NCBI RefSeq assembly: GCF_902859645.1 | Contig: NZ_CADIJR010000002.1 | Span: 62,001-126,000 of the forward strand | DNA: 64,000 nucleotides | Reading direction: 5' to 3' | DNA from: Achromobacter insuavis | Lineage (GTDB): Bacteria > Pseudomonadota > Gammaproteobacteria > Burkholderiales > Burkholderiaceae_B | Shown: piece by piece, positions 20,681-64,000 of the stretch | Layout of the letters: each line of letters begins with the position of its first letter | Position numbering within the stretch: the stretch's first letter is position 1 | Position numbers and translations under genes: made by a program | Notes under the pieces: model-generated | Told to the model about the DNA's origin: nothing | The model's input: the letters and a program-made list of their open reading frames with translations, nothing else | Databases searched by the model: none

Positions 20681-21012
20681 CCGAAGAAATCGCCATTTCC
20701 CTACGGGAGGCGGCGAAGCGGTTGGGACTGTCCTACCAAACCGTGTTCGCCCGCCGAAAACAGATCGGCTTCAGACTGCCGGGCGGTCGCGCCTGGCGCG
20801 TCTGGCCATCCCAACTTGCCCTGCTGGGGCAGAAAAGCAACAATGTGACCCGGCTATCGCTGCAGGTCGACGGAGATTCACCATGTCAATCCGCAGAGAC
20901 AAAGCATCCGGGGTTTGGCAGATCGACATCTGCTCGCCAGGCATCCCGAGAATTAGATGCTCTTCTGGCACCACAGAAAAAAAGGCCGCGCAGGAATACC
21001 ACGACCGACTGA
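20677..21012 (+). CDS. Excisionase-like HTH protein
   Basis: 111 residues; residues about 6-45 form an HTH_17/excisionase-type winged helix (ISLREAAKRLGLSYQTVFAR, then RLPGGRAWRVWPSQL). It directly precedes the integrase and its tail overlaps the integrase start by 130 nt, unusually long. The C-terminal 60 residues look unstructured, so the functional part may end near 20,830. Expected role: direct the integrase to excision. Confidence 0.7.
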   Translation: MTEEIAISLREAAKRLGLSYQTVFARRKQIGFRLPGGRAWRVWPSQLALLGQKSNNVTRLSLQVDGDSPCQSAETKHPGFGRSTSARQASRELDALLAPQKKRPRRNTTTD

Positions 21013-50876: not shown

Positions 50877-50943
50877 CCTCCCCTGCCTAGAAAGCCGGCC
50901 GCATGAGCTTGTTGTAATTCCGCCATGCACCGAACACCCAACA

Positions 50944-50992
50944 TTGCACGCATAAACTTGTTTTTTGCGTGCAACATGCCATAATGCACGCA
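50944..50992. promoter_or_regulatory. Inverted repeat upstream of the P63C gene
   Basis: TTGCACGCA (50944-50952) and TGCGTGCAA (50966-50974) form a perfect inverted repeat; a third half-site TGCACGCA is at 50985-50992. A CATAAT (-10-like) lies between sites two and three. Probable operator/promoter for the next gene. Confidence 0.6.
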
Positions 50993-51017
50993 CCTTATCA
51001 AAAAAACGGTGATGCAC

Positions 51018-52028
51018 ATGGCAGAGAAGAAAGTTACCGGGCGGGCGGCAGGTGGTGCAGCCAGAGCAAAGAGCCTAACTGCTGAACAGCGATCTGAGTC
51101 GGCGCGAAAAGCGGCCAAGGCAAAGGCCGCAAAAGCTAAGTTGCCTGTGGCCACGCATGGCTCAACCGACCACCCCCTTCGCCTTGGCGACATTGATATC
51201 CCCTGCTATGTCTTGGAAGACGGCACTCGTCTGCTGTCGCTGACGGGTCTCAATGGCGCTTTGAAAATTTCCTCTGGATCTACTCGGTCAGGTGACAGCC
51301 GCCTAGTGCAGTTTATTGAGTCGGATAGCATCCGACCGTACGCGAAGGGTCAGCTTGCTGAGGCGCTTCGAAACCCCATTGAGTTCATCCCACCGCACGG
51401 AGGTCGATCTGCGCACGGCTACCCAGCAACCGTACTCGCTGACATTTGCGAGGGAGTGTTGGCGGCTCGCGAAGCCGGCCCTTTAACTGCAACTCAGCAG
51501 GCCATTGCTAAACAATGTGAAATCCTTGTGCGAGGCTTTGCCCGCGTTGGGATTATCGCTCTGGTCGATGAGGCGACTGGTTACGAGAAAGACCGCGCCA
51601 AAAACGAGCTAGCCAAAATTCTCGAAGCGTTTGTCGCAAAAGAGTTGCAGCCGTACGTGAAAGCATTCCCGTCGGACTATTACGAGCAGATGTTCCGGCT
51701 GCGCGGCCTCAAGTACCCGCCCGACAATCCGCGCTTCCGTCCACAGTACTTTGGCGTACTGACGAACGATATTGTCTATTCTCGTGTAGCACCAGGCTTG
51801 CTTGAAGAGCTGAAAAAACAGGCGGCAAAGGATGAAAAGAAGGCCCATCTACACAGGCGCCTTACACAAGAAATTGGGCATCCAAAGCTACGCGAACACC
51901 TAGCATCAGTGGTAACCGCGATGAAGCTTTCATCGGATTATCCAGATTTCATTTCCAAGATGAACCGGCTTCATCCGCGATTCGAAGGACAAGCAGCCCT
52001 TGATCTAGAAGACGAAGACAAAGGCTAG
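51018..52028 (+). CDS. P63C-domain protein
   Basis: 336 residues; in-frame ATGs at 51012 and 51018, start not decided by a clear ribosome site. Ala/Lys-rich basic N-terminus (about 1-45), then a soluble domain and, at about 215-260, the P63C pattern (YYEQMFRLRGLKYPPDNPRF; QYFGVLTNDIVYSRVAPGLL). P63C proteins occur in prophages and islands; role unknown, possibly antirepressor or regulator. Has its own operator-like repeat and a terminator, and lies in the lysogenic region. Confidence 0.8.
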   Translation: MAEKKVTGRAAGGAARAKSLTAEQRSESARKAAKAKAAKAKLPVATHGSTDHPLRLGDIDIPCYVLEDGTRLLSLTGLNGALKISSGSTRSGDSRLVQFIESDSIRPYAKGQLAEALRNPIEFIPPHGGRSAHGYPATVLADICEGVLAAREAGPLTATQQAIAKQCEILVRGFARVGIIALVDEATGYEKDRAKNELAKILEAFVAKELQPYVKAFPSDYYEQMFRLRGLKYPPDNPRFRPQYFGVLTNDIVYSRVAPGLLEELKKQAAKDEKKAHLHRRLTQEIGHPKLREHLASVVTAMKLSSDYPDFISKMNRLHPRFEGQAALDLEDEDKG

Positions 52029-52041
52029 CCCCCTGCCCACC

Positions 52042-52066
52042 AAGCCACCTCCGGGTGGCTTTTTTA
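52042..52066 (+). terminator. Rho-independent terminator of the P63C gene
   Basis: GCCACC-TCCG-GGTGGC followed by TTTTTT. It also touches the end of the convergent 82-aa gene. Confidence 0.9.
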
Positions 52067-52312
52067 TTCCAGCGGCCTCTTCCCCGCCAGGCGCAGCAGC
52101 GCTTCGGCGGCAACACGCTCAGAATCGGTGTGCTGGCACCACCGCTGGTAGATCGCCGCGCCCACAGCCAACATCGAGTACAGCTCATCTTCTGTCAGCT
52201 TCGGGGCGATTCGCTCAAGACGGGTGGCGTACACCGTAAGCACCGACTCCCAGTCGCCGGGATCGCCCTTCTTCGCGGTGACCATCAGCGCCAGCATCGT
52301 GGCCTTGTCCAT
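52064..52312 (-). CDS. Hypothetical phage protein, 82 aa
   Basis: Helical soluble protein (LTVYATRLERIAPKLTEDEL; LYSMLAVGAAIYQRW). Pattern of a common small phage early protein of unknown role. Downstream of the LprI-like gene on the same strand; an inverted repeat CACCCGGAG/CTCCGGGTG (about 52338-52363) lies between them. Confidence 0.6.
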   Translation of the reverse strand: MDKATMLALMVTAKKGDPGDWESVLTVYATRLERIAPKLTEDELYSMLAVGAAIYQRWCQHTDSERVAAEALLRLAGKRPLE

Positions 52313-52387
52313 GGCGCCTCCTAGAAAACTGCAGCGTACACCCGGAGCATGACATCTCCGGGTGGATTTCTTGTTGCTTAGTAGGGC

Positions 52388-53314
52388 TTAATCACCCGGC
52401 CGGCACTCAACCCATTTCCGCTGATAGCCAGCTTCACCAGCATGGCCCCAGCACCAGCCCGCACGCTCAATCTGAGTCATCAGCAGGTCGCGATCGCTGC
52501 ACGCTTCGGATGTTCGAGGATTCGCAGGTAGTCCGCCGCGGCACTCTCCATTCAGTCGGTCAGCCTCGTTTAGCATACCTTCCATTTGGGCCCTCGGCCG
52601 GGCTGCCACCTTGCTGGCAGTTGCGCTCTGCTCACGGCAATCAAACACCGGCACGTCATAGTGCAACCCGAGCCCCACGCACGATGCAGCGAAATTCTGC
52701 CACTTCTTCAGTTTCGAGAGCTCGGGCTCTTGATTCGAAGAAAAAACCAGTTTGATGGCTCCGTAGCGATAGCCGCCCAACAAGGCGACGTACGGGTCGT
52801 CACCAACATCACGCCTGACTTCAATCACTACCCCAGCGATGCTGGAACGCTTGCCACGAAATCGTTCATCAGCCGCCAGGCCGTTCGCCTCATAAGCCGC
52901 AGCGACATTTACTGCCTGGACTTGGGGCGTGCGGTCGCTCTGTTTGGAGGGGATCTCATCCGCCGAAGGACGCGTCTTGGTCATCTTGGCATTCGCGGCA
53001 AATGCCAAGTACCGCGGGGTCACGTTCTCATACCACTCTTCCACGCAAATCGAATCACTGCAATTTGCGGCACGCCACTGCAAGTCGGATGCGGCCAACT
53101 TCATGAACTGATCGCGATCTTCGACACTGTCTCGGGCCGTTGTGTAGGCCTGCGCGTACTTGGTGTCCAGGTTCAGCAGCGGCTGGCTACCGCACACCAG
53201 CCTGTCAATTTTCGTCGAAGGCTTCTGGCAATCAACGCTATTCGCATGCGCAACTACCCAAGGCATCCCCACTAAGAGCGCGGTAACGACCCATCCCCTT
53301 CCGACTTTGACCAC
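52388..53314 (-). CDS. Secreted LprI-like protein with OB-fold-like domain
   Basis: 308 residues from GTG 53314, chosen because GGAG lies 5 nt upstream and a clean signal peptide follows (basic KVGR, hydrophobic WVVTALLVGMPWVV, AHA cleavage about residue 24). Mature residues about 27-100 fit the LprI-type lysozyme-inhibitor family (DCQKPSTKIDRLVCGSQPLL and paired Cys). About 150-250 resemble a tRNA_anti-like/OB domain (AAYEANGLAADERFRGKRSS; VIEVRRDVGDDPYVALLGG). Exported to the periplasm, it could protect the lysogen from lysozyme or from superinfecting endolysins. Function inferred. Confidence 0.68.
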   Translation of the reverse strand: MVKVGRGWVVTALLVGMPWVVAHANSVDCQKPSTKIDRLVCGSQPLLNLDTKYAQAYTTARDSVEDRDQFMKLAASDLQWRAANCSDSICVEEWYENVTPRYLAFAANAKMTKTRPSADEIPSKQSDRTPQVQAVNVAAAYEANGLAADERFRGKRSSIAGVVIEVRRDVGDDPYVALLGGYRYGAIKLVFSSNQEPELSKLKKWQNFAASCVGLGLHYDVPVFDCREQSATASKVAARPRAQMEGMLNEADRLNGECRGGLPANPRTSEACSDRDLLMTQIERAGWCWGHAGEAGYQRKWVECRPGD

Positions 53315-53420
53315 GTCGCTCTCCAAGTAACAAAACATTCTTGATGGTAGCTGATAGCTGGCGGTCGCGGCCACCTGCCCCACAGCCCGCCTTGAGCGGG
53401 CCATTTTGCGTTCCGACATA

Positions 53421-53454
53421 AACCATTGCTTGCTTTTAAACTAAAGCAATGGTT
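53421..53454. promoter_or_regulatory. Operator region OL of prophage B
   Basis: Perfect 11-bp inverted repeat AACCATTGCTT/AAGCAATGGTT with a 12-bp AT-rich spacer. It shares the AAGCAATG half-site with the cI-cro region 3.7 kb away. It lies between the leftward LprI-like gene and the rightward early operon, so it probably represses the early promoter. Confidence 0.75.
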
Positions 53455-53557
53455 TAATTCATTCACGGCAGACAAGTCTGCTGGCAAGACCTCCACGGAG
53501 CCGCACCCCTGGGACACCTCGGCGGCAGACGTTAGCCCACACACATAAAGAGTCGGC

Positions 53558-53752
53558 ATGGAGAAGAGGCAGCAGCACCAGAAGTACCGCTCTTTATCTG
53601 CCTGGCTCAACCAGGTGCATCACGTCGTTGGCGAGGACGCTAAATCGCAACGCAGCCACCCGGGCTGGATACGAATAGCGGGGAGCCGTGGAGGCCCGGA
53701 AACGGACAAGACGGGGCAGCGAATGAAAGCTCGCTGCGATGAAGGGTGGTAG
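53558..53752 (+). CDS. Possible small basic ORF in the N position, 64 aa
   Basis: First open frame after the early operator. Basic N-terminus (MEKRQQHQKYR) could be an Arg-rich RNA-binding motif as in lambda N. Codon character is poor and a boxA/boxB-like site lies inside it. Treated as doubtful. Confidence 0.25.
   Translation: MEKRQQHQKYRSLSAWLNQVHHVVGEDAKSQRSHPGWIRIAGSRGGPETDKTGQRMKARCDEGW
53588..53615 (+). promoter_or_regulatory. nut-like site (boxA and boxB)
   Basis: CGCTCTTTA (53588-53596; lambda boxA is CGCTCTTA) followed after 4 nt by a perfect hairpin CCTGG-CTCAA-CCAGG (53601-53615), the size of boxB (5-bp stem, 5-nt loop). It lies in the early leader about 130 bp after the operator, where nut sites occur. 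Confidence 0.5.
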
Positions 53753-53825
53753 CCCCACCCTTCCAGATTCATCTGAATGCCAGCCCATCCGGGTTCAGGC
53801 ATTTTCATGAACCTGGGAGGTCAAG

Positions 53826-54062
53826 ATGACCAAAGTGACCGTCGAGGTTGAGCTTGACCTCACAGACCTTGAAGACGGCGAAATGATCGGCGAGCTTGAA
53901 TCGCGCGGATATGAAGTGTCTAGCGATTTTGAGGTGGATCACCCATCCGTCGATTTAGATCTGATGGGACGCCTCCATGAGCTCATTCGCAGCGGGAGAG
54001 ACGAAGAGGCAATCCAACTCATACGCCCCTACCTGCTAGACATTCTAGGGAAGGCGCTATGA
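53826..54062 (+). CDS. Hypothetical acidic phage protein, 78 aa
   Basis: Clear ribosome site (GGGAGG) before ATG 53826. Strongly acidic (VEVELDLTDLEDGEMIGELE). No family recognised. First well-supported gene of the plus-strand early operon; 4-nt overlap with the next. Confidence 0.65.
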   Translation: MTKVTVEVELDLTDLEDGEMIGELESRGYEVSSDFEVDHPSVDLDLMGRLHELIRSGRDEEAIQLIRPYLLDILGKAL

Positions 54063-54322
54063 CTTTCTACGCGTTCGTCCATTCCCGCAGCGGGCTGACC
54101 CGCCCAGTTCTCGCGGGCGAGTTCAAAGGCCGCGACCAAAGCGACGCCTACAACAAGGCCATCGCCAGCCCAGCAGTCAAGAAAATCGTCGGGCACCAGC
54201 AGACGCAGGATTTGTACGTGCGGGTCTACGAGGCCCGTGATTACCGCAGCGCGGCAGATCAGGCAATGGCCGTGCACACACCCTGGCTGTCCCCTACCCC
54301 CGAAACAAACGCCCGAGCATGA
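54059..54322 (+). CDS. Hypothetical phage protein, 87 aa
   Basis: Soluble alpha/beta protein (MTFYAFVHSRSGLTRPVLAG). Overlaps the preceding gene by 4 nt and ends 29 bp before DGR target 1, so it shares a transcript with it. Not recognised. Confidence 0.6.
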   Translation: MTFYAFVHSRSGLTRPVLAGEFKGRDQSDAYNKAIASPAVKKIVGHQQTQDLYVRVYEARDYRSAADQAMAVHTPWLSPTPETNARA

Positions 54323-54351
54323 ATCGGGCCTCTCAAATACTTGGAGAAACC

Positions 54352-54804
54352 ATGAGCAATGCATTCGTAGTTGGCCAGTACGCCGAGGGCCAAGGCGGGA
54401 TCTACATCGGCCTGACCGCACAGGGGCGGCACCTGTTCGCCGCTGCGGCGCCGCTGGACGGCGATTTCGAATTCGGCGGCTATGGCGATGAATTGGACGG
54501 CTACTCCGACCTGGATGGCGCCGAGAACACCCGCAAGCTGCTGGAACGCGGCGGTCATCCCGCTGCCCAGGCCGCATCCGAGTACTCGGCCGATGGCCAC
54601 AAGGACTTCTACCTGCCAGCTCATCGTGAACTGCTGCAGGTGGTGGCGGTGGAAGGTCTCGACGAAACCGTTGGCGACGTGTGGACCTCGACGCCCCACG
54701 GCTCGTACGACGCCTGGGCGGTGGGTTTCGAGTACGGTGGCGTCTTCTACTGGGGCCGCAGCGACGAGTTCCGGGTGCGTCCCGTCCGCAGCATCATCGC
54801 TTGA
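54352..54804 (+). CDS. DGR target protein 1 (variable C-type-lectin-like protein)
   Basis: 150 residues from ATG 54352 with GGAG 7 nt upstream. The N-terminal strand pair (GQYAEGQGGIYIGLTAQ) and the SADGHKDFYLPAHRELLQVV segment resemble DUF1566/FGE-like C-type-lectin folds. The last about 33 residues (HGSYDAWAVGFEYGG to FRVRPVR) are the variable region, encoded by VR1. Residues at TR Asn sites are D, G, Y, G, F, Y, G, S, D. No signal peptide and no fibre domain. Lies 5.3 kb upstream of the other two targets in the same operon. Ligand unknown. Confidence 0.88.
   Translation: MSNAFVVGQYAEGQGGIYIGLTAQGRHLFAAAAPLDGDFEFGGYGDELDGYSDLDGAENTRKLLERGGHPAAQAASEYSADGHKDFYLPAHRELLQVVAVEGLDETVGDVWTSTPHGSYDAWAVGFEYGGVFYWGRSDEFRVRPVRSIIA
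54692..54790 (+). repeat. DGR variable repeat VR1
   Basis: 99 nt aligned with TR 61264-61362. In the core from CCCCACGG to GTCCGCA there are 13 differences, all at TR adenines (A to G, T); all C, G and T positions of the core are identical. At the extreme 3' side it continues GCATCATCGC, differing from the TR's AATCATGC as an IMH differs from IMH*. Confidence 0.95.
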
Positions 54805-54820
54805 TCAATTAACCCCTTTC

Positions 54821-54838
54821 GCCCCGGCTTGCCGGGGC
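54821..54838 (+). other. Hairpin/cruciform downstream of VR1
   Basis: GCCCCGGC-TT-GCCGGGGC, a perfect 8-bp inverted repeat (or 7 bp with a CTTG loop), 30 nt after VR1. Such DNA hairpins promote target recognition in the BPP-1 DGR. It might also act as a terminator, but has no U-tract. Confidence 0.8.
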
Positions 54839-55223
54839 TTGCAGCATCGAAAGCGGATGCACTATGCCGCGTCCGGTCTTCCTAGGTCTGAACCGGGGAA
54901 AACGTGGCCGCTGGTGTGTAGCGAGTAGAAATCGTCCGGGCCCAGCGCCGGAGCTGGAACCGTAACCAGCGGCACCCTCAACTGCTCAAGCCGGCGCATC
55001 CAGGCGCATCGCCTTAGCCGCGCTGCGATCCCTAACTCTCAACACGTGCGAAAAGCCAAAGCCCTGCTTTATGGGCACTTGGGTGCGCCGACTTGAGCAA
55101 GCTTACGCAGCCTTCCTCCCCTCCCTCAAGCTTCCTAGACACACCGGCATGTACGTTCATGACGTGGCGCTGGGCCGTCCGTGGGGAATCGGCTAGGGAG
55201 GCTGCACCTCATTAGGAACAACC
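54839..55223. other. 385-bp gap after DGR target 1, no gene found
   Basis: Only short frames (longest from ATG 54864 is about 34 codons). Contains a near-direct repeat GGCGCATC/AGGCGCATCG around 54993-55012 and several GC-rich stem-forming stretches (for example around 54935-54980). No tRNA, promoter or phage gene recognised in an otherwise tightly packed operon. Confidence 0.5.
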
Positions 55224-55556
55224 ATGGGGACTCGCCCTAAGTTCACCTTTGATACGCCCCAAGAAATCTACGACATGAAGTATGCAGAGGTCGTCAGGGA
55301 GATTGAGGCGGGTCTGCTCAAGTGGCGGCACCAGGTAATCGAGGCCTTCGAGAACGAATTCCCCGACGAGGACGCCCAGATGCTGTCCTTCATCGCTGGC
55401 AACGCTGACCGGCCGGAGAAGATCCTGGAACTGGCTGCTTCTGGAATCCTGGGGCCGGAATGCCGCGACCAGATGACCCTGGCTATCGCGCATCTTGCCG
55501 ACTACCACACCAAACAATACGTGCGCGGCTACTGGCCGGAATGGAGCAAGGGATGA
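55224..55556 (+). CDS. Hypothetical phage protein, 110 aa
   Basis: Helical acidic protein (YDMKYAEVVREIEAGLLKWR; RDQMTLAIAHLADYHTKQYV). Restarts the tightly overlapping gene series after the gap. Not recognised. Confidence 0.6.
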   Translation: MGTRPKFTFDTPQEIYDMKYAEVVREIEAGLLKWRHQVIEAFENEFPDEDAQMLSFIAGNADRPEKILELAASGILGPECRDQMTLAIAHLADYHTKQYVRGYWPEWSKG

Positions 55557-55651
55557 GCGTCGCCCTCTTCATCCTGTGCGGCCTGTGCGCCGCTTACCCC
55601 TTGGGCCTGATCGGCGACTTCGCCATGGCCTTTCTGAGGAAGTCAGCATGA
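55553..55651 (+). CDS. Tiny membrane protein, 32 aa
   Basis: ATG 55553 overlaps the upstream stop and its own stop overlaps the next start. Single hydrophobic helix (ALFILCGLCAAYPLGLIGDF). The tight coupling on both sides supports it. Confidence 0.55.
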   Translation: MSVALFILCGLCAAYPLGLIGDFAMAFLRKSA

Positions 55652-55986
55652 CCGATACCTATCAGCCCATCTATGACGCAGTGCGCAGCCGCATCGGCCA
55701 TGCCGACGTTGGTCAAGCCGTTGAAAGCGCCTTGCGCGAGGCCTTCGGCAACGCAGACCACATCATCCGGTGCGCCGTGCAGGAAACCGTCAACGAATTG
55801 CAGCGCCCGGCGGTTGTCTTCCGTCCGGCATTGAGTATCGACGGCGACCAGTGGTGTGCCCTCTACGGCGCCAATTTGCAGGATGGCGTGGCCGGATTTG
55901 GCGACACGCCCGCCGCTGCGATGCATGCGTTTGACCGCGCATGGTTGAACGACAAGACCCCGCTGGCCGCGCGAGGTGCCCAATGA
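55648..55986 (+). CDS. Hypothetical phage protein, 112 aa
   Basis: Helical N-terminus (YDAVRSRIGHADVGQAVESA) then a beta part (ALYGANLQDGVAGFGDTPAA) that looks like the RNase-H-like/HicB-type small phage domain. 4-nt overlaps at both ends. Unknown. Confidence 0.6.
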   Translation: MTDTYQPIYDAVRSRIGHADVGQAVESALREAFGNADHIIRCAVQETVNELQRPAVVFRPALSIDGDQWCALYGANLQDGVAGFGDTPAAAMHAFDRAWLNDKTPLAARGAQ

Positions 55987-56309
55987 CCGCCCACACGTTC
56001 GACTATCCGGCCGATTTCGACGGCCCGGCCGGCTGCCTCGCGGAAGGCCATCTGGTCATCGAATTCGACCATTCCAAAGCGGATCCATCCGTGGGTGCGG
56101 CCGCCAGCATCACGATCAATTCCATCGTGGTAGTCATCGGCGCCTACTCGGGCACGTTCGATGGCGACTACGGCGACGCCGACCTGATCGCGGCCTGCTG
56201 GCGCCACTTGGCCGACGAGAAAGAGCGCATCGAATGTGAGCGCGCCGATTGGATGCGCGAGGAAGCCGAAGACATCCAGGCGCTCATGGACCGGGACATG
56301 GGGGACTGA
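55983..56309 (+). CDS. Hypothetical phage protein, 108 aa
   Basis: Beta-rich N-terminal half (FDGPAGCLAEGHLVIEFDHS) and a charged helical C-terminus (EERIECERADWMREEAEDIQ type). Starts in the upstream stop. Unknown. Confidence 0.6.
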   Translation: MTAHTFDYPADFDGPAGCLAEGHLVIEFDHSKADPSVGAAASITINSIVVVIGAYSGTFDGDYGDADLIAACWRHLADEKERIECERADWMREEAEDIQALMDRDMGD

Positions 56310-56310
56310 G

Positions 56311-56466
56311 ATGCGCAACCTGATCCGAACCCACTGGGAAGGCGTCGTCATGGCCCTGCTGATGACCGTTGCCTTCTCCCTCGCCGGCATGTTGGACGAG
56401 CAAGCCCAATCCACCCTCACCGCCTGCGAAGGCTGCGGCAAGACCGCCGTCGCCGCCAAGGAATGA
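56311..56466 (+). CDS. Small membrane protein, 51 aa
   Basis: Hydrophobic segment VVMALLMTVAFSLAGML after a basic start, then a short Cys-containing tail (ACEGCGK). Either N-anchored or exported. One bp after the previous stop. Unknown. Confidence 0.5.
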   Translation: MRNLIRTHWEGVVMALLMTVAFSLAGMLDEQAQSTLTACEGCGKTAVAAKE

Positions 56467-56467
56467 C

Positions 56468-57565
56468 ATGACCGAAGCAACTGAAATCGCCAAATTGCCG
56501 CCGAAGGAAACCGCGCTGGAGGTGTACTCCAAGCCCAGCGGCCTGGAGCCGTGGCTGGAGAAGATCCGCGCCGAGGTGTCCGGGCATGTGCCTGACCTCA
56601 AGACGAAGAAAGGCCGTGACGCGATCGCCAGCTTGGCGTTCAAGGTTCGTAAGGTCAAAACCGCCCTGGACGGTATGGGCAAACAGTTGGTTGATGACCT
56701 GAAGGACGTGCCGAAGCGGATTGACGCCGAGCGCAAGCGCATGCGCGACACGCTGGACGCCCTGGCTGACGATGTGCGTCGACCGCTTACGGAGTGGGAG
56801 CAGGCCGAAGAAGATCGCGTACAGCGTCACAAAGATGCAGTCGAGGGAATTGCGTCTCTGGTCGTCAACTGCAATGAATCTGCGGAATCGCTGCGCGCCG
56901 CCCTCGCTGCCGTGGAAGCCATCGCCATCGGACCCGAATGGGAAGAATTCGAAGCGGAAGCCGCCCGAGCTAAGGACAAGGCGCTGTCAGGCCTTCGTGA
57001 CCGGCTGGTGGCGCGCGAGAAGTATGAGGCAGAGCAGGCCGAGCTTGCCCGCCTGCGTGCCGTGGAAGCGGCCCGCGAGCAGAAGGAGCGCGAAGAGCGC
57101 ATTGCCCGCGAAGCCGCCGAGCGCGCCCAGCGCGAAGCCGAGGCCCGCGCCCAGGCCGAGCGCGACGCCGCCGCGCGCCGCGAAGCTGAAGCCCTGGCCG
57201 CCGCCGAAACCGCCCGCCTGAATGCCCAACTGGCCGAGCAGCGCCGCATTGCCGCCGAGCAGCAGGCCGAACTCGACCGCCAGGCCGCCGCGGTGCGCGA
57301 GCGGGAAGCCGCGGCGCAGGCCGAGCAACGCGCGCGCCAGGCTGCCGAGCAGGCCGCCGCCGCCGAGCGCCAGCGCATCGCCGACGAACAGGCCGCTGCG
57401 GCTGCCGAAGCCGCGAGCCGCGAGGAAGACATGGCCCACAAGGCCACCATCAACCGCGCGGCCCTGGATGCGTTCGTCCACGGCGGCATGCCCGAGGACT
57501 GCGCCAAGCAGGCGGTCACGCTGATCGCCAAGGGCCTGATCCCCAACATTCGAATCACCTATTGA
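56468..57565 (+). CDS. Coiled-coil phage protein preceding the recombination genes
   Basis: 365 residues from ATG 56468. Helical domain about 1-170 (GRDAIASLAFKVRKVKTALD), then an extreme Glu/Arg/Ala/Gln coiled coil about 185-315, and a short conserved C-terminal domain (AFVHGGMPEDCAKQAVTLIA). This protein type often precedes annealing/exonuclease genes in phages. It may organise the recombination complex; function not known. Confidence 0.65.
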   Translation: MTEATEIAKLPPKETALEVYSKPSGLEPWLEKIRAEVSGHVPDLKTKKGRDAIASLAFKVRKVKTALDGMGKQLVDDLKDVPKRIDAERKRMRDTLDALADDVRRPLTEWEQAEEDRVQRHKDAVEGIASLVVNCNESAESLRAALAAVEAIAIGPEWEEFEAEAARAKDKALSGLRDRLVAREKYEAEQAELARLRAVEAAREQKEREERIAREAAERAQREAEARAQAERDAAARREAEALAAAETARLNAQLAEQRRIAAEQQAELDRQAAAVREREAAAQAEQRARQAAEQAAAAERQRIADEQAAAAAEAASREEDMAHKATINRAALDAFVHGGMPEDCAKQAVTLIAKGLIPNIRITY

Positions 57566-57572
57566 GGACGCC

Positions 57573-58406
57573 ATGAACGAAGTTATCGAAGCGCCTGCCC
57601 GGCAGTCGGGCATTGTCCCGCAGCAGGATGGCCGCAGCTCGGTCGCCGACGTCACCCGCCATGTGATCGCGGTCCAGGAAGTGATGCGTTCGGTGATGAA
57701 GCCGAACGTGCACTACGGAGCGATTCCCGGCGCGGGCGAGAAGCCGACGTTGTTGAAGCCCGGCGCCGAGGTGCTGTGCATGACCTTCCGCATCGCGGAC
57801 GAGTACGAAATCGTGGACCTCTCCACGGCCGGAGCCGTTCGCTATCGCGTGAAGTGCATCGGCCGGCACCAAGCCACGGGCGTAGCCCTCGGGTCTGGTC
57901 TGGGCGAGGCCTCCACCGACGAAGAGAAGTATCGCTGGCGCAAGGCGGTCTGCGATGCCGAATTCGAGGGCACGCCTGCCGAGATGAAGCGCACGAAGTA
58001 CGGGCGCAAGTCTGGCGGGCACTACACGGTCCAGCAGATTCGGACCGAGCCGGCCGACCTTGCGAACACCGTCCTGAAGATGGCCTGCAAGCGCGCCAAG
58101 ATCGCCATGGTTCTGAACGTCACGGCCGCCAGCGACATGTTCAGCCAGGACCTGGAAGACCTGGACGCCGAGCTCGTGCGGCACCTGGCCGAAGACGAGC
58201 GCGAAACGCACATGCTGGAGGTTCGCACCGAATGGGTCACCCGGGCGCAGGCCGCAGCGAACGAGGATGAACTGCGCGCAACCATGAAGGCCGGCGTGAA
58301 GGTGTTTCAGGCCGCGCGCGACCAGGATGGATACAAGCAATTCGCTGCGGCGGTACAGAAGCGCGGCGCAGAGATCAAGCAACCTCAAGGAGATAGAAAT
58401 GCGTGA
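57573..58406 (+). CDS. Candidate single-strand annealing recombinase
   Basis: 277 residues. HYGAIPGAGEKPTLLKPGAE and VLCMTFRIADEYEIVD in the N-terminal half, RKAVCDAEFEGTPAE in the middle and ANTVLKMACKRAKIAMVLNV later follow a pattern seen in phage genes next to YqaJ exonucleases. The exonuclease starts 8 nt before its stop and SSB follows, so a RecT/Red-beta-like role is likely. Assignment is from context and general pattern, not from a definite family match. Confidence 0.62.
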   Translation: MNEVIEAPARQSGIVPQQDGRSSVADVTRHVIAVQEVMRSVMKPNVHYGAIPGAGEKPTLLKPGAEVLCMTFRIADEYEIVDLSTAGAVRYRVKCIGRHQATGVALGSGLGEASTDEEKYRWRKAVCDAEFEGTPAEMKRTKYGRKSGGHYTVQQIRTEPADLANTVLKMACKRAKIAMVLNVTAASDMFSQDLEDLDAELVRHLAEDERETHMLEVRTEWVTRAQAAANEDELRATMKAGVKVFQAARDQDGYKQFAAAVQKRGAEIKQPQGDRNA

Positions 58407-59070
58407 TATCAAGTTCCGCTGCTCGAGCATCGGCAAGCTGATGGCCAACCCGACTGCCGCCGCCATCAAGGCTGGCGAAGTCCTTTCGGTCGGTGCCAAG
58501 ACCTACATCCGTGAACTAGCCCAACAGGAGATCCTGGGCATCGACTTCGAATTCTCCAGCAAGGAGACCCAGAAAGGCCTGGAGGTCGAGGATCAGTCCA
58601 TCGCCCTTCTGAACCGCGTGCGCGGCCTGTCCTTGGTGAAGAACGCCGAGCGCCGCACCAATGAATGGCTCACGGGCGAATGCGACCTCTATGACGCCGA
58701 GCGCCGGCGCGGCCATGACCTCAAGTCGTCGTGGTCGGCGAAGACATTCCCGGGCTGGCTGGTGGACGCGATCGACAGCGGGTACGAATGGCAGATGCGC
58801 GGCTACATGATGCTGTGGGACGCCGATCAGTGGGAGGTGAACTACGCCCTGGTCGACACGCCGGAGCGGCTGATTGGCTTCGAGCCGATCCAGATGCACC
58901 TGGTGTCTCACATCCCTGAACACCAGCGCCTCACGTCCTGGATCATCGAACGCGACTTCGAGAAAGAGCGCGAGATGATCGCCAAGGTCAAGGCAGCGCG
59001 CGAGTACTTCGCCGAAGTCATCCAAGACTTTGACCAGGTCCATCCCCAACTGTTCAAAGAGGCCGCATAA
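58399..59070 (+). CDS. YqaJ/lambda-exonuclease-like nuclease
   Basis: 223 residues from ATG 58399. PD-(D/E)XK core: [17 protein letters not shown] (Glu), [20 protein letters not shown] (Asp...DLK), and [20 protein letters not shown] (Gln and Arg of the YqaJ fold). Degrades one strand to feed the annealing protein. The ATG of ssb overlaps its stop. Confidence 0.82.
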
Positions 59071-59594
59071 TGGCCAGCGTTAACAAAGTCATCCTGGTTG
59101 GCAACCTGGGCCGCGACCCCGAGGTCCGCTACAGTCCGGACGGCATGGCCGTCTGCAACCTCTCCCTCGCAACGACGTCCAGCTGGAAAGACAAGGCCAG
59201 CGGCGAGAAGCGCGAGGAAACTGAATGGCATCGCGTCGTCATGTACAACCGCCTGGCTGAAATCGCCGGCGAATACCTGAAGAAGGGCCGCTCGGTCTAC
59301 ATCGAGGGCCGCCTGAAGACCCGCAAGTGGCAGGACAAGGAAACCGGCGCTGACCGCTACAGCACCGAAATCGTCGCCGACCAGATGCAGATGCTGGGCG
59401 GCCGCGAAGACGGCGGCGGCGGTGGCGGCAGCTACGGTGGCGGCGGTGGCTACGACGACGCCCCGGCGCGCCAGCCGCAGCAGCGCGCCCCGGCCCAGCG
59501 CCCGGCGCCGCAGCAGCGTCCCGCGCCCCAGGCCGCGCCCGCCGGCGGCGGCGCCAACCTGGCGGACATGGACGACGACATCCCTTTTGATTGA
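59070..59594 (+). CDS. ssb: Single-stranded DNA-binding protein
   Basis: 174 residues. OB fold about 1-110 ([60 protein letters not shown]), Gly- and Pro/Gln-rich linker and the acidic tip DMDDDIPFD that binds partner proteins. Full length. Last recombination gene before the DGR. Confidence 0.95.
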
Positions 59595-59681
59595 GGGCGC
59601 AGGAACTCGAACGCCGAAGGGCTTCCTGCGCCCATAAGCAAGCCCAACCGCCGCAATCGCGGCAAATTCCCAAGGAAGACC

Positions 59682-60251
59682 ATGAACAACATGATCCCGC
59701 TGGATCCGGGCGGCTTGCGCCTGGAAATTCCCGCATCTACCCTGCTCGGCGCATTGAGCAGCTATCTCGCTTCTCGCCCCGGGCAGCCTGTCCATCAGGC
59801 CAAGATCGGCCAGTACCTGCCGGGGCAGGGTGGTATCTACGCCGGCGACATCCTCGGCGACGATGGCGTGGTCTACGGCCTCGTCGTTGCCAGCGAGGAT
59901 CTGGATGGCACGTATACCTGGGGGCCGGACGATGGCGAACGTACCGCCAGCACCTGGGATGGCCTGGTCAACACAAACGACCTGCTGCGCCACGACAGTG
60001 CGCACCCAGCTGCGCGCGCGGCCAGGGCGTACAGCGCTGACGGACACGCTGACTTCTACCTGCCGGCCAAGCGTGAACTGCAGATCATTGCGGCCAACCT
60101 GCCGCACCTGTTCCAGCCGAAGCCGTACTGGACCTCGACGCCCCACGGCTCGTACACCGCCTGGGCGGTGAATTTCGAGTCCGGTGGCGTCACCAGCTGG
60201 CTCCGCGGCACCGAGTTCCGGGTGCGTCCCGTCCGCAGATTCACCTATTGA
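59682..60251 (+). CDS. DGR target protein 2
   Basis: 189 residues from ATG 59682 (AAGGAAG upstream). An extra N-terminal helix region about 1-40 (ASTLLGALSSYLASRPG) precedes the shared fold (GQYLPGQGGIYAGDILG; SADGHADFYLPAKRELQIIA). The C-terminal 33 residues are the VR2-coded variable face, with T, N, S, G, T, S, L, G, T at the TR Asn sites. No secretion signal. The N-terminal extension may mediate oligomerisation or partner binding. 87 bp after ssb. Confidence 0.9.
   Translation: MNNMIPLDPGGLRLEIPASTLLGALSSYLASRPGQPVHQAKIGQYLPGQGGIYAGDILGDDGVVYGLVVASEDLDGTYTWGPDDGERTASTWDGLVNTNDLLRHDSAHPAARAARAYSADGHADFYLPAKRELQIIAANLPHLFQPKPYWTSTPHGSYTAWAVNFESGGVTSWLRGTEFRVRPVRRFTY
60139..60237 (+). repeat. 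DGR variable repeat VR2
   Basis: 99 nt aligned with the TR; 12 core differences, all at TR adenines. The AAT codon at the second variable site is unchanged. Followed by GATTCACC where the TR has AATCATGC. Confidence 0.95.
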
Positions 60252-60268
60252 TCCATTTACCCCTTAAG

Positions 60269-60281
60269 CGGGCGAAGCCCG
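60269..60281 (+). other. Hairpin downstream of VR2
   Basis: CGGGC-GAA-GCCCG, 31 nt after VR2. Same distance and type as those after VR1 and VR3. Confidence 0.75.
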
Positions 60282-60293
60282 TAGGAGACTTGC

Positions 60294-60707
60294 ATGACCG
60301 CTATCGCAACTACCGCGCCCGTCATCGGGCAGGAATGGCCCGAACAGGGCGGTATCTACATCGGCTCCCGCCTCATCTACGGCGCCATGCATCACGTGGT
60401 CATCCCGGGCAGCAAGGAATTCGACCTGGTTGACGTGGAATTCAAGGATCTGGCCTCGGCTGTGACCGAGCGCGGCGAAGTGAACGGCCATGCCGATTGG
60501 CGCGCGCCCGACCAGGAAGACATGATGCTGGCCTACATCAACGTCCCGGATCTGTTCGAAAAGGGCGACTGGTACTGGACGAACAAGCCCCTCGGCTCGT
60601 ACCGCGCCTGGGCGGTGCTTTTCGAGTCCGGTGACGTCTACCGCTGGGGCCGCAGCCTCGAGTTCCGGGTGCGTCCCGTCCGCAGCATCATCGCTTCACC
60701 CCTTTAA
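60294..60707 (+). CDS. DGR target protein 3
   Basis: 137 residues from ATG 60294 with GGAG upstream. Shares the start GQEWPEQGGIYIGS and a shortened fold (DWRAPDQEDMMLAYINVPDL) that lacks the SADGHxDFYLP wording of the other two. C-terminal variable region coded by VR3, with R, L, S, D, Y, R, G, S, L at Asn sites and an extra His to Leu change. Lies 42 bp after target 2 and 28 bp before avd. Confidence 0.9.
   Translation: MTAIATTAPVIGQEWPEQGGIYIGSRLIYGAMHHVVIPGSKEFDLVDVEFKDLASAVTERGEVNGHADWRAPDQEDMMLAYINVPDLFEKGDWYWTNKPLGSYRAWAVLFESGDVYRWGRSLEFRVRPVRSIIASPL
60586..60684 (+). repeat. DGR variable repeat VR3
   Basis: 99 nt aligned with the TR; 16 differences in the core, all at TR adenines, including one at the 5'-most adenine (CAC to CTC). 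Upstream flank is diverged (AACAAG instead of TCGACG). 3' flank GCATCATCGC is identical to VR1. Confidence 0.95.
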
Positions 60708-60713
60708 CCCTTT

Positions 60714-60728
60714 GCGGGCGTAGCCCGC
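60714..60728 (+). other. Hairpin downstream of VR3
   Basis: GCGGGC-GTA-GCCCGC, 29 nt after VR3, directly before avd. Confidence 0.75.
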
Positions 60729-60735
60729 TGACGCC

Positions 60736-61122
60736 ATGGCCCTGCACACCGATACCAAGATATTCAAGGCAACCTACGACCTGAGCTTGTTGGTGGAAAA
60801 GCTTGTGGCCAACATGCCTCGGAACTACAAGGCTGTTTTCGGTAAGCGACTGCATGCACAAAGCTTCGATCTGGTGATGCAGGTGTATCGGGCAAACTCT
60901 GCGACGGACAGGCCACCTCTGATTCGGGCTCTCAGGGAAGGGGTCGAAGCGACAAACCTGTCTTTGCGCTTGGCGGTCGATCTACGGCTGATATCGCGGC
61001 CCCAGTACGGGCAGGCGATAGAACTCACCGATAGCATCGGCCGCCAGGCCACAGGATGGCTGAAACACTCCGAGAACGCGCTTGCCGCCCCGCCGTCACG
61101 GCGGCCGGGCCAACGCGCTTGA
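60736..61122 (+). CDS. avd: DGR accessory variability determinant Avd
   Basis: 128 residues, the length of BPP-1 Avd. All-helical and basic (YDLSLLVEKLVANMPRNYKA; NLSLRLAVDLRLISRPQYGQ), the four-helix-bundle pattern that forms a positively charged pentamer. It binds the reverse transcriptase and TR RNA and is needed for cDNA synthesis. Its position upstream of the TR matches BPP-1. Confidence 0.88.
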   Translation: MALHTDTKIFKATYDLSLLVEKLVANMPRNYKAVFGKRLHAQSFDLVMQVYRANSATDRPPLIRALREGVEATNLSLRLAVDLRLISRPQYGQAIELTDSIGRQATGWLKHSENALAAPPSRRPGQRA

Positions 61123-61263
61123 TGATCTGGTCACGCCGCTGGCCCACAAGGCCACCGATATGCGCACAAGAGGAAACCTCCGGCTCAGGCCGCCCAGGTC
61201 CCGCGCAGTTTCCCCGCTGATCCGGCAAGCCTTCGGCGGGGCGACGTGGATAGCGTGATATCT

Positions 61264-61362
61264 CGCCCCACGGCTCGTACAACGCCTGGGCGGTGAATTT
61301 CGAGAACGGTAACGTCAACAACTGGAACCGCAACAACGAGTTCCGGGTGCGTCCCGTCCGCA
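61264..61362 (+). repeat. DGR template repeat TR
   Basis: Lies between avd (ends 61122) and the RT start (61382). Nine Asn codons (eight AAC, one AAT) occupy the sites that vary in the targets. The 3' end is CCGCAAATCATGC, an IMH*-type sequence differing from all VRs, and no hairpin follows at +30. The TR RNA probably starts within avd or the 141 bp after it and runs into the RT gene. Non-coding template for mutagenic cDNA. Confidence 0.95.
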
Positions 61363-61381
61363 AATCATGCTCGGAGTTTTT

Positions 61382-62467
61382 ATGGATTCTTGCCATTCGT
61401 TCGCGGAGCTGGTGCAGGCATATTTCGACTGCCGCCGGCTCAAGAGAAACACGGCCAGCGCCCTGCGCTTTGAAATGAATCTGGAGCGCAACCTGGCCCA
61501 GCTGGACGAGGAGCTCCGGAGCGGCACCTACCGCCCCGGACGTTCAATCTGCTTTGTCATCACCCGCCCCAAGCCGCGCGAAGTCTGGGCGGCCGACTTC
61601 CGGGATCGGGTGGTTCACCATCTGCTCTACAACAAGATCGCCCCGCGCTTCCTGGCGGGGTTCATCGCCGATTCGTGCGCTTGCATTCCGGGGCGCGGCA
61701 CGCTGTACGCCGCGCAGAGACTTGAATCGAAGGTTCGCAGCGTGACGCAGAACTGGGCGCACCCGGCTATGTATCTCAAAGCCGACCTGGCCAACTTCTT
61801 TGTGAGCATCGACAAGCGCTATCTGTGGCTACGGGTTGGCCGCAAGATTCCGGAGCATTGGTGGCGCCGCCTGGCCGCGCAGATCTTGTTTCATGACCCG
61901 CGGGCCGATGTTGAGGTGCGGGGCGACCGCGCAACGTTGGCGCTTGTCCCCAGGCACAAGCGCCTAGCCGAGGCTCCGGACCACTGCGGTCTTCCCATCG
62001 GCAACCTGTCGTCCCAATTCTTCGCCAACATCTTGCTGGACGGCCTGGATAAGCACGTGAAGCACCACCTGCACGGCAAGCACTACGTGCGATACGTGGA
62101 CGACTTCGTCTTGCTGCACCCATCAGCGCAATGGCTAGGGCAGGCCCTGGACTCGGTCAACTCCTACCTGCCACGGCTGGGCTTGGAACTGAACCCGCGC
62201 AAAACCATCATCCAGCCTATCGATCGAGGCGTTGATTTTGCCGGTCATGTAATCAAGCCCTGGCGCCGTGAAGTGCGCCGCCGCTCCGTCCGCACGGCTG
62301 TGCGACGAATCGAAGATCTGCCACAAGAGAGGGTCTTCGAGACGGGCAATAGCTACCTAGGGATGCTTCGCCATGCAGACGGCCACCGTGACCGCGCCCT
62401 GATTGCCAATGCCATGCGCAAGCGCGGGTATGCCGTTCGATCCGATCTGAAAAAGGCCTATCGCTAA
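61382..62467 (+). CDS. DGR reverse transcriptase
   Basis: 361 residues from ATG 61382 with GGAG 6 nt upstream; ATG 61367 lies 5 codons earlier and is less likely. RT motifs: PKPREVWAADFRDRVVHHLL (about 57), motif A LKADLANFFVSID (about 132), motif B LPIGNLSSQFFANILLDGLD (about 206), motif C RYVDDFVLL (about 237) and GVDFAGHVI (about 284). The LPIGNLSSQ form of motif B separates it from group II intron and retron enzymes. No maturase or endonuclease domain. With Avd it copies the TR RNA with errors at adenines. Confidence 0.96.
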   Translation: MDSCHSFAELVQAYFDCRRLKRNTASALRFEMNLERNLAQLDEELRSGTYRPGRSICFVITRPKPREVWAADFRDRVVHHLLYNKIAPRFLAGFIADSCACIPGRGTLYAAQRLESKVRSVTQNWAHPAMYLKADLANFFVSIDKRYLWLRVGRKIPEHWWRRLAAQILFHDPRADVEVRGDRATLALVPRHKRLAEAPDHCGLPIGNLSSQFFANILLDGLDKHVKHHLHGKHYVRYVDDFVLLHPSAQWLGQALDSVNSYLPRLGLELNPRKTIIQPIDRGVDFAGHVIKPWRREVRRRSVRTAVRRIEDLPQERVFETGNSYLGMLRHADGHRDRALIANAMRKRGYAVRSDLKKAYR

Positions 62468-62506
62468 TCGCAAAGGCTCCCCTTTCCATTGCCCAGGAGA
62501 TTCCAA

Positions 62507-62650
62507 ATGAATTCGGATAGGCACATTCACACCGACCTAGACGACGAATCGTCGGACCGGCTCCTTGAATACGGGATCGTCGGGGCAATTTCTGGGCTAC
62601 TGATTCTCTGCGCCATCGCGAGCATGGCGTTCAACCAACTTCTGAGGTGA
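62507..62650 (+). CDS. Small membrane protein, 47 aa
   Basis: AGGAG 7 nt before ATG 62507. Acidic soluble start (RHIHTDLDDESSDRLLEYG) and one membrane helix (IVGAISGLLILCAIASMAF). First gene after the RT. Unknown; could be unrelated to the DGR. Confidence 0.55.
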   Translation: MNSDRHIHTDLDDESSDRLLEYGIVGAISGLLILCAIASMAFNQLLR

Positions 62651-62654
62651 CGAC

Positions 62655-63053
62655 ATGACCGAATTCGAAATCAAGCACGGCCTCTTCCAGGACGAGCCCG
62701 GGCCGCTGGAGCTGGCTGCATCCCCCGTATCCACGGTGGAGCAAGGGGATGCGGTGAAGCGGCTGCGCGATGCCATCGAGGGCGAATGCAGCGGCGTATG
62801 GATCAGCGAGAAGCAGGCCATCGCCGTGCTGGCCCACCTGAACCACCCCGCTCCCGCTGCTGGCGATGCGCGGGATGCGCATTTCGACCTGTTGCAAGAC
62901 GACATGGTGGTGGCGTCGGCCAGTGGCCCACGGGCGCAGGCCCTGCAAGAGATCCAGAACTATGCAGCCGTGTACGGCCAGGACGGCCCTGTGCAGATCG
63001 AGGAAGTCATCCGCATTCCGTTTAATGCCGCCCAGCGGCAGGGGGATGCGTGA
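62655..63053 (+). CDS. Hypothetical phage protein, 132 aa
   Basis: Soluble; SVTxEQGDAVKRLRDAIEGE-like helix in the middle, WISEKQAIAVLAHLNHPAP after it. Pattern seen in betaproteobacterial phages, function unknown. Its last base overlaps the next ATG. Confidence 0.6.
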   Translation: MTEFEIKHGLFQDEPGPLELAASPVSTVEQGDAVKRLRDAIEGECSGVWISEKQAIAVLAHLNHPAPAAGDARDAHFDLLQDDMVVASASGPRAQALQEIQNYAAVYGQDGPVQIEEVIRIPFNAAQRQGDA

Positions 63054-63295
63054 TGGAACTCACCTACTACGAAAAGAAGGTACTCGCCGCACTGAGCGGA
63101 CCGGGCGCGTTGCTAACTCGCGATGTGGCCGACAGGGTGCGCCCGCGTTTCGGCAACCAGCATCAGCACAGCGCCGCCATGCGGGTTTGTCTGGTGCGCC
63201 TGGAAAAGCTGGGCCTGGTTCGACGCCTGGACAACGAGAAACCCGTTTGCTGGCAGCTCGCCGCCCAGCCGTCACAACGTAAGGGGGATGCGTGA
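63053..63295 (+). CDS. Small winged-helix-like protein, 80 aa
   Basis: YYEKKVLAALSGPGALLTRD, then SAAMRVCLVRLEKLGLVRRL gives a HTH plus wing like MarR/DprA-type minimal domains. Overlaps both neighbours. May regulate or be a DNA-binding accessory. Confidence 0.6.
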   Translation: MELTYYEKKVLAALSGPGALLTRDVADRVRPRFGNQHQHSAAMRVCLVRLEKLGLVRRLDNEKPVCWQLAAQPSQRKGDA

Positions 63296-63498
63296 TGGCA
63301 CAAGACCGCCAACCCATGAAGCGCGAGACACCCGACCTTTACAAAATGAACCTGCCTGACGGCAAGACCTGCGGCGACTGCGCGCATTTCCGCCGCTGCA
63401 ATCTGATGTTCGGCCATATCGCGGGCGACGAGCAATGCGACTGGGCGCCGTCGCGCTTCATCGCCGCCCAGCCAGCACAACAGGGCGCGGGGAGGTGA
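63295..63498 (+). CDS. Small zinc-binding phage protein, 67 aa
   Basis: CGDCAHFRRCNLMFG then DEQCDWAPSRF: four cysteines of a common small phage zinc-finger type. Unknown role. Starts in the upstream stop. Confidence 0.65.
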   Translation: MAQDRQPMKRETPDLYKMNLPDGKTCGDCAHFRRCNLMFGHIAGDEQCDWAPSRFIAAQPAQQGAGR

Positions 63499-63500
63499 GC

Positions 63501-64000
63501 ATGGACGTTGCCGCTCTGTTCGTGGAAACGGACGGCGCCTATTTCGGCGTGCCTGGCGTGGACCCGTGGGACGAGCCGCGGGACGCACGCCGGTACGCCG
63601 GGCATCGTCCTGTCGTCGCCCACCCGCCCTGCCAGCGCTGGGGCCGGTACTGGCATGGGCCACCCAACAAGCCGCACCAGTTCCGGCTCGGCGAAGACGG
63701 CGGATGCTTCGGCGCCGCGCTGACCGCAGTGCGCAACTACGGCGGCGTGCTGGAGCATCCGGCCGACTCTCGCGCCTGGGGCTGGTTTGGACTGAAGAAG
63801 CCGCCGCGCGCCGGCCGGTGGGTGCGCGCCGATGAATTCGGCGGCTGGACCTGCTATGTCGAGCAAGGGCATTACGGCCACATGGCGCGCAAGGGGACGT
63901 GGCTCTACGCCGTCGGCACCGATCTTCCTGAACTGAAGTGGGGCCGGTCACCCCAGCGCATCCACCCGCGCGCCCTGGAACTGCACGGCTACGAGAAGGC
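63501..64000 (+). CDS. Hypothetical phage protein, partial, PPC motif
   Basis: GGAGG before ATG 63501; runs off the window after 166 codons. VVAHPPCQRWGRYWHGPPNK and VLEHPADSRAWGWF recall the PC motif and following strand of cytosine-C5-type methyltransferase-like phage proteins, but no SAM-binding motif is visible in the part seen. Class uncertain. Confidence 0.6.
   Translation, partial: MDVAALFVETDGAYFGVPGVDPWDEPRDARRYAGHRPVVAHPPCQRWGRYWHGPPNKPHQFRLGEDGGCFGAALTAVRNYGGVLEHPADSRAWGWFGLKKPPRAGRWVRADEFGGWTCYVEQGHYGHMARKGTWLYAVGTDLPELKWGRSPQRIHPRALELHGYEK

Follow-up and report, generated by a model that had tools for sequence, protein, structure and literature searches.

Diversity-generating retroelements (DGRs) are divided into six clades in the available text of Roux et al. 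2021 (PMC8144416). According to the accessible parts of the DiGReF and MetaCSST surveys (PMC3521204, PMC6642488), two to four variable repeats (VRs) may accompany one template repeat (TR), DUF1566 is the commonest Pfam domain of the targets, and a TR overlapping the open reading frame (ORF) of the reverse transcriptase (RT) defines a described class; elements with several VRs make up about a seventh (PMC3521204) or 28.6% (PMC6642488) of the total. The DGR of BPP-1 has its TR directly against avd and, between the TR and the RT gene brt on the 3′ side, a spacer of 144 nt that matches Rfam family RF03022 (Phage_DGR, titled 'Bacteriophage Diversity-Generating Retroelement RNA'). The structure of this spacer recruits bRT-Avd and primes the cDNA, as described in the text available from PMC12875486.

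Here we analyse a DGR that sits in a prophage of Achromobacter insuavis, in a 64,000-nt stretch (bases 62001-126000 of contig C2 in a genome of 6.82 Mb) that we call the window. Judged from its sequence, the element is a DGR of a temperate phage. It shares with BPP-1 the order avd-TR-RT, the substitution of adenines and membership of the DGR clade of RTs, but the RNA is laid out differently. In the window a leader extends 141 nt past avd on the 5′ side of the TR, and just 19 nt separate the TR from the RT ATG. No structured spacer of the BPP-1 type was found 3′ of the TR, and no match to RF03022 at E ≤ 1 was found in window positions 50000-64000. The template RNA of this DGR is very probably organized by a 5′ leader of the Rfam family RT-15 that is predicted to clamp the 3′ flank of the TR, in a mirror image of the BPP-1 arrangement.

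The template repeat, its leader and a predicted clamp

The TR (61264-61362) aligns without gaps over 99 nt with VR1 (54692-54790), VR2 (60139-60237) and VR3 (60586-60684), all on the plus strand, reproducing the alignment given in an earlier note made from this sequence. The TR contains 23 adenines, and the VRs differ from it at 13, 12 and 17 positions, respectively; 41 of these 42 differences fall at TR adenines. The lone other difference is a C>A change in VR3 at the first base of the interval (61264), 5′ of the CCCC. The earlier claim that substitutions are confined to adenines was counted from the CCCC onward and is correct as given (13, 12 and 16 substitutions, 41/41); the one exception lies before that starting point. 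There is no interior non-adenine substitution in any of the VRs, and the three differ from one another, each target having been rewritten in its own way as the note had proposed. Non-adenine mismatches to the TR number 0, 0 and 1 in the VRs, compared with 34 at the next-best 99-nt site on either strand of the window. A search of the genome with 161 bases around the TR gave four sites at E ≤ 0.001, these being the TR and the three VRs, and no fourth VR was found in the window or the genome.

The RT-15 leader (RF03018) occupies 61076-61265 of the plus strand, scoring 157 bits against a gathering score of 82 (E = 2.9e-38). Its 5′ part covers the final 47 nt of the avd ORF, and its 3′ end reaches the first bases of the TR. 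An iterative profile search begun from the window leader and covering the 420 nt before each TR end places the leader directly 5′ of the TR in 75/75 TR-bearing loci, including the window; it ends 82-115 nt before the TR 3′ end, i.e. at the TR 5′ edge. In two of these loci (L038 and L044) the TR lies ∼1.16 and 0.85 kb from the RT with other sequence between, and the leader is still with the TR. The leader therefore belongs to the template RNA. The consensus structure of the 49 leaders aligned, from the 75, contains 47 pairs, with 95.4% of cells paired and 35 pairs changed on both sides. None of 500 shuffles scores as high, and slid versions pair 29-42%, although, in cells paired, the comparison with slid versions is biased towards this structure, which was derived from the very alignment used. 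The family bears a name that does not mark it as a DGR RNA, and is said to have been described by Weinberg et al. in 2017. A search of open-access literature found no paper on RT-15 as a DGR RNA, which does not show the link to be unpublished; a title on bifidobacterial growth was the one paper that a related search listed. A wider census of RT-15 in 369 genomes of the class returned a single match, the own genome, and so provided no independent test of co-occurrence.

One conserved leader segment (…UUGAAUCUG), not part of the RT-15 helices, has its complement in the 3′ flank of the TR (CAGAUUCAA…). The predicted clamp strands in the window are 61122-61129 in the leader (8 nt, x8 to x1) and 61361-61368 at the TR 3′ end (y1 to y8), both on the plus strand, and 7 of the 8 positions pair. 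Among relatives the leader strand covaries with the flank. Over 74 loci including the window, with 65 distinct strand pairs, 81% of positions pair in register compared with at most 44% when the strands are slid. The x7-y7 position is paired in 61 of the 65 combinations (TA 28, GC 27, CG 4, TG 1, AT 1), where shuffles give 29.6, and double changes occur at x2, x3, x5 and x6-x10, with none at x1 or x4. In a set comprising viral contigs, phages and G025, x7-y7 is paired in 50/58 distinct combinations (29.2 in shuffles); the two sets overlap in part, and together hold 116 distinct combinations. Mapped on the RT tree, changes number 10 for x7, 12 for y7 and 13 for the pair; the coupling reaches 0.90 at x7 and, at x8, 0.88, whereas off-diagonal cells average 0.36. 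At positions 4-10 TR flanks pair better than VR flanks (0.75 versus 0.57), with mixed exceptions at x6 and of the x4-to-x5 type. All 10 positions are paired in L038 and L044. Folding gives at least five clamp pairs in 31/74 loci, compared with 49/222 when flanks are swapped, and predicts the full helix in L038. In the assignment of strands one run missed L009, L039 and L075, and a second missed L075. In a run on 168 sequences the leader was found in 164 and the flank was missed in L199; the flank finder takes the first motif, and so misplaces some (e.g. L010). From the covariation between the leader strand and the TR 3′ flank we infer a clamp helix.

A number of observations weigh against this reading. 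At x6 the preference is clearly reversed, with pairing to 138/164 VR flanks and 43/74 TR flanks, the coupling at x10 (0.39) is no better than background, and the off-diagonal cell of x9 with y3 reaches 1.00, though it changes just four times. The tree offers so few independent pairs that the median sign test does not reach 0.05, and these tests have low power. In the window itself the clamp is imperfect, with one C·A mismatch, and is not obtained by folding (summed pair probability 0.01); nor is folding of the window RNA significant (z = −1.18). Moreover, the 5′ part of the leader overlaps avd, so that coding constraint also shapes it.

The RT-15 leader is predicted to be the organizer of the template, with the clamp supported by the covariation. 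Following the known DGR pathway, a transcript running through avd, leader and TR would be bound by RT-Avd via the leader. The leader strand would pair with the TR 3′ flank, holding the end at which the cDNA starts next to the leader for priming. RT-Avd would then copy the template with errors at adenines, and, beside the hairpin of each target gene, the mutagenized cDNA would take the place of the gene's 3′ end. A role is thereby suggested for RT-15, a family known in Rfam by that label alone, and a pairing so short and specific makes the start of the cDNA directly testable in DGRs that lack a spacer of the BPP-1 type.

The retroelement lineage and its natural variation

The RT gene (61382-62467, plus strand) encodes 361 aa from an ATG preceded by a Shine-Dalgarno-like GGAG; an earlier ATG of the same ORF (61367-62467) lies at 61367. 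The ORF matches PF00078 (1.4e-16) and phrog_1423 (6.6e-112). Its best match in the PDB is the 'Reverse transcriptase' of 8ub7-8ube (3.9e-36), which we take to be the BPP-1 DGR RT. In a tree of 38 proteins it groups with the RTs of BPP-1, BalMu-1, VP58.5, ACA1, phiARM81mr, Lagaffe and Bacteroides F2 (98/97). Five group-II-type RTs (99/99) and three retron-like RTs (100/99) of the same genus fall outside this clade. The labels of these eight comparison RTs are our own, the retron-like ones having matched NF038233 below its cut-off, and long branches are flagged among them and for L127, L128, L083 and BPP-1. The nearest RTs among named genomes are those of Alcaligenaceae, including Bordetella genomosp. 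4 and Achromobacter veterisilvae. The DGR-type RT of the earlier note is thus upheld; the note had named grouping with retrons or group II introns as the result that would speak against it, and the RT stands apart from both. The note was also right in placing an Avd-like protein beside the TR. The avd gene (60736-61122, plus strand, 128 aa) matches PF22296 at 46.3 bits (cut-off 40; 6.8e-12) and phrog_3206, labelled 'Avd protein of DGR', at 3.7e-27. It matches NF033474 below the cut-off (52.2 versus 80 bits), and a sequence search of the PDB gave nothing better than E = 0.32.

The prophage lineage is a widespread one, and a TR with VRs was found in 74 of 80 genome loci with related RTs. No such pair was found in L021, L027, L041, L080, L082 and L084, of which the last is a 19-kb locus and the other five span 3.8-15.3 kb. 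With the window this makes 75 loci and 166 VRs counted within flanks of 9 kb or less; 8 loci have one VR, 45 two, 20 three and 2 four. Three VRs are therefore common in the lineage. Between the first and last adenine substitution, 2327/4746 adenines differ compared with 134/8964 other bases, and of the latter 124 are no more than 12 nt from one or other end, in sequence past the repeat that the scan had run into. For a fixed core, 25-85 nt upstream of the TR end, the corresponding figures are 1934/4048 and 81/6060, and 140 of the 166 VRs are free of any non-adenine change there.

Closer relatives exist in nine viral contigs with RTs 89-92% identical to that of the window. We compared ten elements with 26 VRs, comprising the window, G025 and eight of the nine contigs; L137 was kept apart, and no TR was recovered from L146-L149 using that of the window. 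There are no identical pairs among the orthologous VR2s or VR3s (45 pairs each). At TR adenines 573/1051 comparisons differ in VR2 (55%) and 612/1051 in VR3 (58%), against 52/3085 (1.7%) and 43/3085 (1.4%) at other bases; the 105 nt that immediately precede these VRs in the genes nonetheless differ on average by 16% and 15%. Where the TRs themselves vary at non-adenine sites, the VRs carry the base of their own TR in 157/158 cases. Repeated copying from TR to VR predicts this, VRs that track their own TR at non-adenine sites with adenines scrambled.

Two sister phages, Cruim01 and Aurca01, give the same picture over a shorter span of time. In two of the target pairs there are 6 and 7 changes in the 240 nt upstream, with VR differences at 15/31 and 11/31 adenine sites and at 0/67 other sites in each. 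The third pair has 72 upstream differences (ungapped), 19/31 at adenine sites and 1/67 elsewhere. By this natural variation repeated TR-to-VR copying has been active in the lineage, in keeping with the statement of the earlier note that the element is or was active, and in these close phages a single template maintains the diversity of three scattered phage genes. For the window strain itself activity is predicted from this variation.

Three further features of the repeats were observed. Compared with Cruim01 (L109), Aurca01 (L110) has lost avd, the TR and most of the RT gene, and has kept all three VRs in their target genes. The TR of L137 (at 8883) has changed at six former adenines relative to the consensus of the ten close TRs, with 19 A remaining, and the L137 VR2 fits this altered TR without non-adenine changes; a conversion from VR to TR is the likely origin. 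Finally, adenines that precede G are rarely substituted (17/546, compared with 2037/3770 before A, C or T, counted over the 75 loci in the core of the TR, 25-92 nt away from its 3′ end). The deficit is present at each codon position (7/51, 6/463 and 4/29 versus 1029/1696, 940/1936 and 61/121), except in TAG, where 5/5 are substituted. Effects of the 3′ neighbour are reported for BPP-1 in section 7 of PMC12875486, in the text available.

How else might these data be explained? A BPP-1-like 3′ spacer could be hidden within the RT coding sequence, leaving RT-15 as an accessory or regulatory RNA. The frame of the RT (taken at codon 11) does indeed lie 10-40 nt past the TR end in 73/75 loci. Moreover, five adjacent codons, for RT residues 50-54 (window ∼61514-61528), are over-conserved at synonymous sites, with identities 1.42-1.87 of expectation over 75 RT genes, a small peak that is unexplained. 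As a whole, however, the synonymous-site test for such a spacer was negative, the first four windows of the RT gene giving 1.04, 1.11, 1.33 and 1.01, not above the mean of 1.14 overall, with limited power. Neither the absence of an RF03022 match at E ≤ 1 in 50000-64000 nor the retention of leader and clamp in L038 and L044, where other sequence follows the TR, sits well with a hidden spacer, which we consider unlikely. Those same two loci bear on the idea that the pairing of leader and flank controls translation of the RT. The window strands (61122-61129 and 61361-61368) reach the stop codon of avd and the stretch that precedes the ribosome site of the RT, whose ATG is at 61382, and in 54 of the 73 adjacent loci translation of the RT is initiated within or upstream of the TR; but all 10 clamp positions pair in the two loci where the RT does not follow the TR, and we are doubtful of this account.

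That the DGR is decayed, with VR patterns that are mere relics, is improbable here. Such decay would be consistent with Aurca01, where, apart from the VRs, the Cruim01 cassette survives only as 91 bp that match the RT gene at its end, and with the VR-like changes in the L137 TR. In the window, though, the avd and RT frames are open, the TR and leader are present, and the VRs are mutually different with no change at interior positions other than adenine. The possibility that the RT is that of a retron or group II intron, with coincidental repeats, is vanishingly small: profile matches to both classes exist, all far below their cut-offs, and are opposed by the position in the RT tree and by the 41/41 substitutions at adenine from the CCCC onward. 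A DGR with an RT-15 leader that would clamp the 3′ flank of the TR remains our preferred explanation.

Targets, hairpins and prophage setting

The VRs lie at the C-termini of three target proteins, the ORFs ending 14, 14 and 23 nt past VR1, VR2 and VR3, respectively. Target 2 (59682-60251, plus strand, 189 aa) matches Lcl_C (PF07603) at 40 bits, above the cut-off of 34.9. Target 3 (60294-60707, plus strand, 137 aa; 34.5 bits) and target 1 (54352-54804, plus strand, 150 aa; 32.1 bits) fall short of it by 0.4 and 2.8 bits, and are Lcl_C-like. Target 1, the remote one among the targets, also matches phrog_4245 (1.5e-20). The best fold match in the PDB of a target 2 model (pLDDT 90.5) is the C-terminal domain of Legionella Lcl (8q4e, E = 1.4e-6, TM 0.46/0.65), followed by weaker matches that include C-type lectins; a sequence profile also picked the 8q4e chain (HbP1, 2.2e-9). 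A fold search gave 17 viral matches at E ≤ 0.001, several of them DUF1566 proteins.

The three target genes lie between those for the repressor (50148-50876) and the integrase, away from the tail genes. The late genes (tail sheath, baseplate, tape measure, capsid, portal and terminase) are on the minus strand at ∼25-44 kb. The plus strand carries in order genes for an exonuclease (58399-59070) and SSB (59070-59594), which the targets flank, the DGR, and then an integrase in the adjoining stretch. Targets of the lineage are short (median 176 aa for 165 targets), and 7/165 have a strongly hydrophobic stretch. We lean towards the view that the targets act inside the cell or on the lysogen rather than as tail fibres, so that the usual tail-fibre story may not apply to target genes placed away from the tail module. 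Two findings run counter to this prediction. The fold of target 2 also occurs in named phage tail proteins, the 17 viral matches including a protein named tail fiber protein, another named receptor binding protein, and a third that has a peptidase S74 domain. In addition, the short-gap DGRs of Bacteroides phages F2 and Bacuni_F1 are near a 'putative outer capsid protein'.

A hairpin follows each VR in the plus strand: 54821-54838 (starting 31 nt past VR1; 7 bp, loop CTTG), 60269-60281 (32 nt past VR2; 5 bp, loop GAA) and 60714-60728 (30 nt past VR3; 6 bp, loop GTA). Over the 75 loci hairpins scoring at least 15 follow 80/166 VRs, compared with 6/75 TRs and 3.7% of shuffles, and in the 56 strongest the stem starts a median of 31 nt past the VR (5-95%: 27-39). 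BPP-1 likewise has a hairpin after its VR, and the text available from PMC3240598 gives a rule of a 4-nt GRNA loop, from which the three window loops depart. We rejected the hairpins as transcription terminators, since all terminator-like sites in 53500-63000, the region of the hairpin after VR1 included, are on the minus strand.

The earlier note had called the element complete. All the parts it listed were confirmed, but it had missed the leader, the VR hairpins and the location of the targets between repressor and integrase. We dropped the idea of a coupling between the DGR and recombination genes, such neighbours being present in only 12/56 genome loci and 4/14 viral loci of at least 17 kb, a count specific to the query proteins used. 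An integrase was found in 29/56 and 8/14 of the same loci. The window contains a second tyrosine integrase gene (20883-21968; phrog_1, 4.9e-53), left of the late genes, that perhaps belongs to another element.

Comparison with known retroelements

How general is this arrangement? Six phage DGRs resemble that of the window, those of Burkholderia phage Magia, Pseudomonas phages Cruim01, Haboob, LPPA56 and phPA-G, and Shewanella phage QDWS, with RTs 57-63% identical and two or three VRs. RT-15 is found by Rfam in LPPA56, QDWS and phPA-G and is annotated in Cruim01, and our leader profile finds the leader in all six. An integrase follows the RT in five of the six (not in phPA-G, in the stretch shown) and a repressor precedes the DGR in four; the annotators of Magia had already flagged a 'possible DGR target'. 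Elsewhere tail, baseplate or virion genes are annotated beside the DGRs of BPP-1, Lagaffe, ACA1, phiARM81mr and Dulem virus 37, and the DGR of BalMu-1 adjoins homologues of PBSX xkdQ-T. The BPP-1 cassette has one annotated tail target, in contrast to the three targets of the window away from tail genes.

The known elements also differ in the distance from the TR end to the first aligned RT residue (for BPP-1 the annotated start), which is 109-304 nt in seven long-gap DGRs and 21-53 nt in four others. In the window lineage the gap to RT codon 11 has a median of 21 nt. In 54 of the 73 adjacent loci there is no start codon between the TR end and codon 11, and three more have TTG only, which places the opening of the RT frame within or upstream of the TR; the window belongs to the 16/73 that have a start codon there. 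In L016, L034, L037, L046, L049, L053, L059 and others in-frame RT starts are found only inside the TR, the template and the RT N-terminus thus sharing sequence. As to the long-gap elements, BalMu-1 has RT-14 3′ of its TR; against a mirror-image layout, an Rfam scan of L128-L131 gave no family over threshold 3′ of the TR, and for these four the layout is proposed from gap lengths.

A comparable pairing can be seen in distant Bacteroides phage DGRs. In L127 (F2), L214 (Bacuni_F1) and L217 a UAUCU(G) before the TR pairs with (C)AGAUA at the TR end. Singly these are not significant, with 23, 23 and 205 of 300 shuffles giving pairings as long, and the same clamp (UAUCUG with CAGAUA) may recur there.

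DGRs with several VRs and DUF1566/Lcl_C targets are already known, and the new part is the template RNA. In the accessible text of the DiGReF and MetaCSST surveys (PMC3521204, PMC6642488) neither a structured leader nor a pairing of leader and flank is described. On balance we favour the existence of two layouts of DGR RNA. One is that of BPP-1, in which the structured spacer lies 3′ of the TR; in the other a 5′ RT-15 leader would clamp the TR 3′ end so that the cDNA starts beside a 5′ structure, a clamp that may extend to Bacteroides phages, serving targets that are perhaps intracellular proteins of lysogeny or the early arm.

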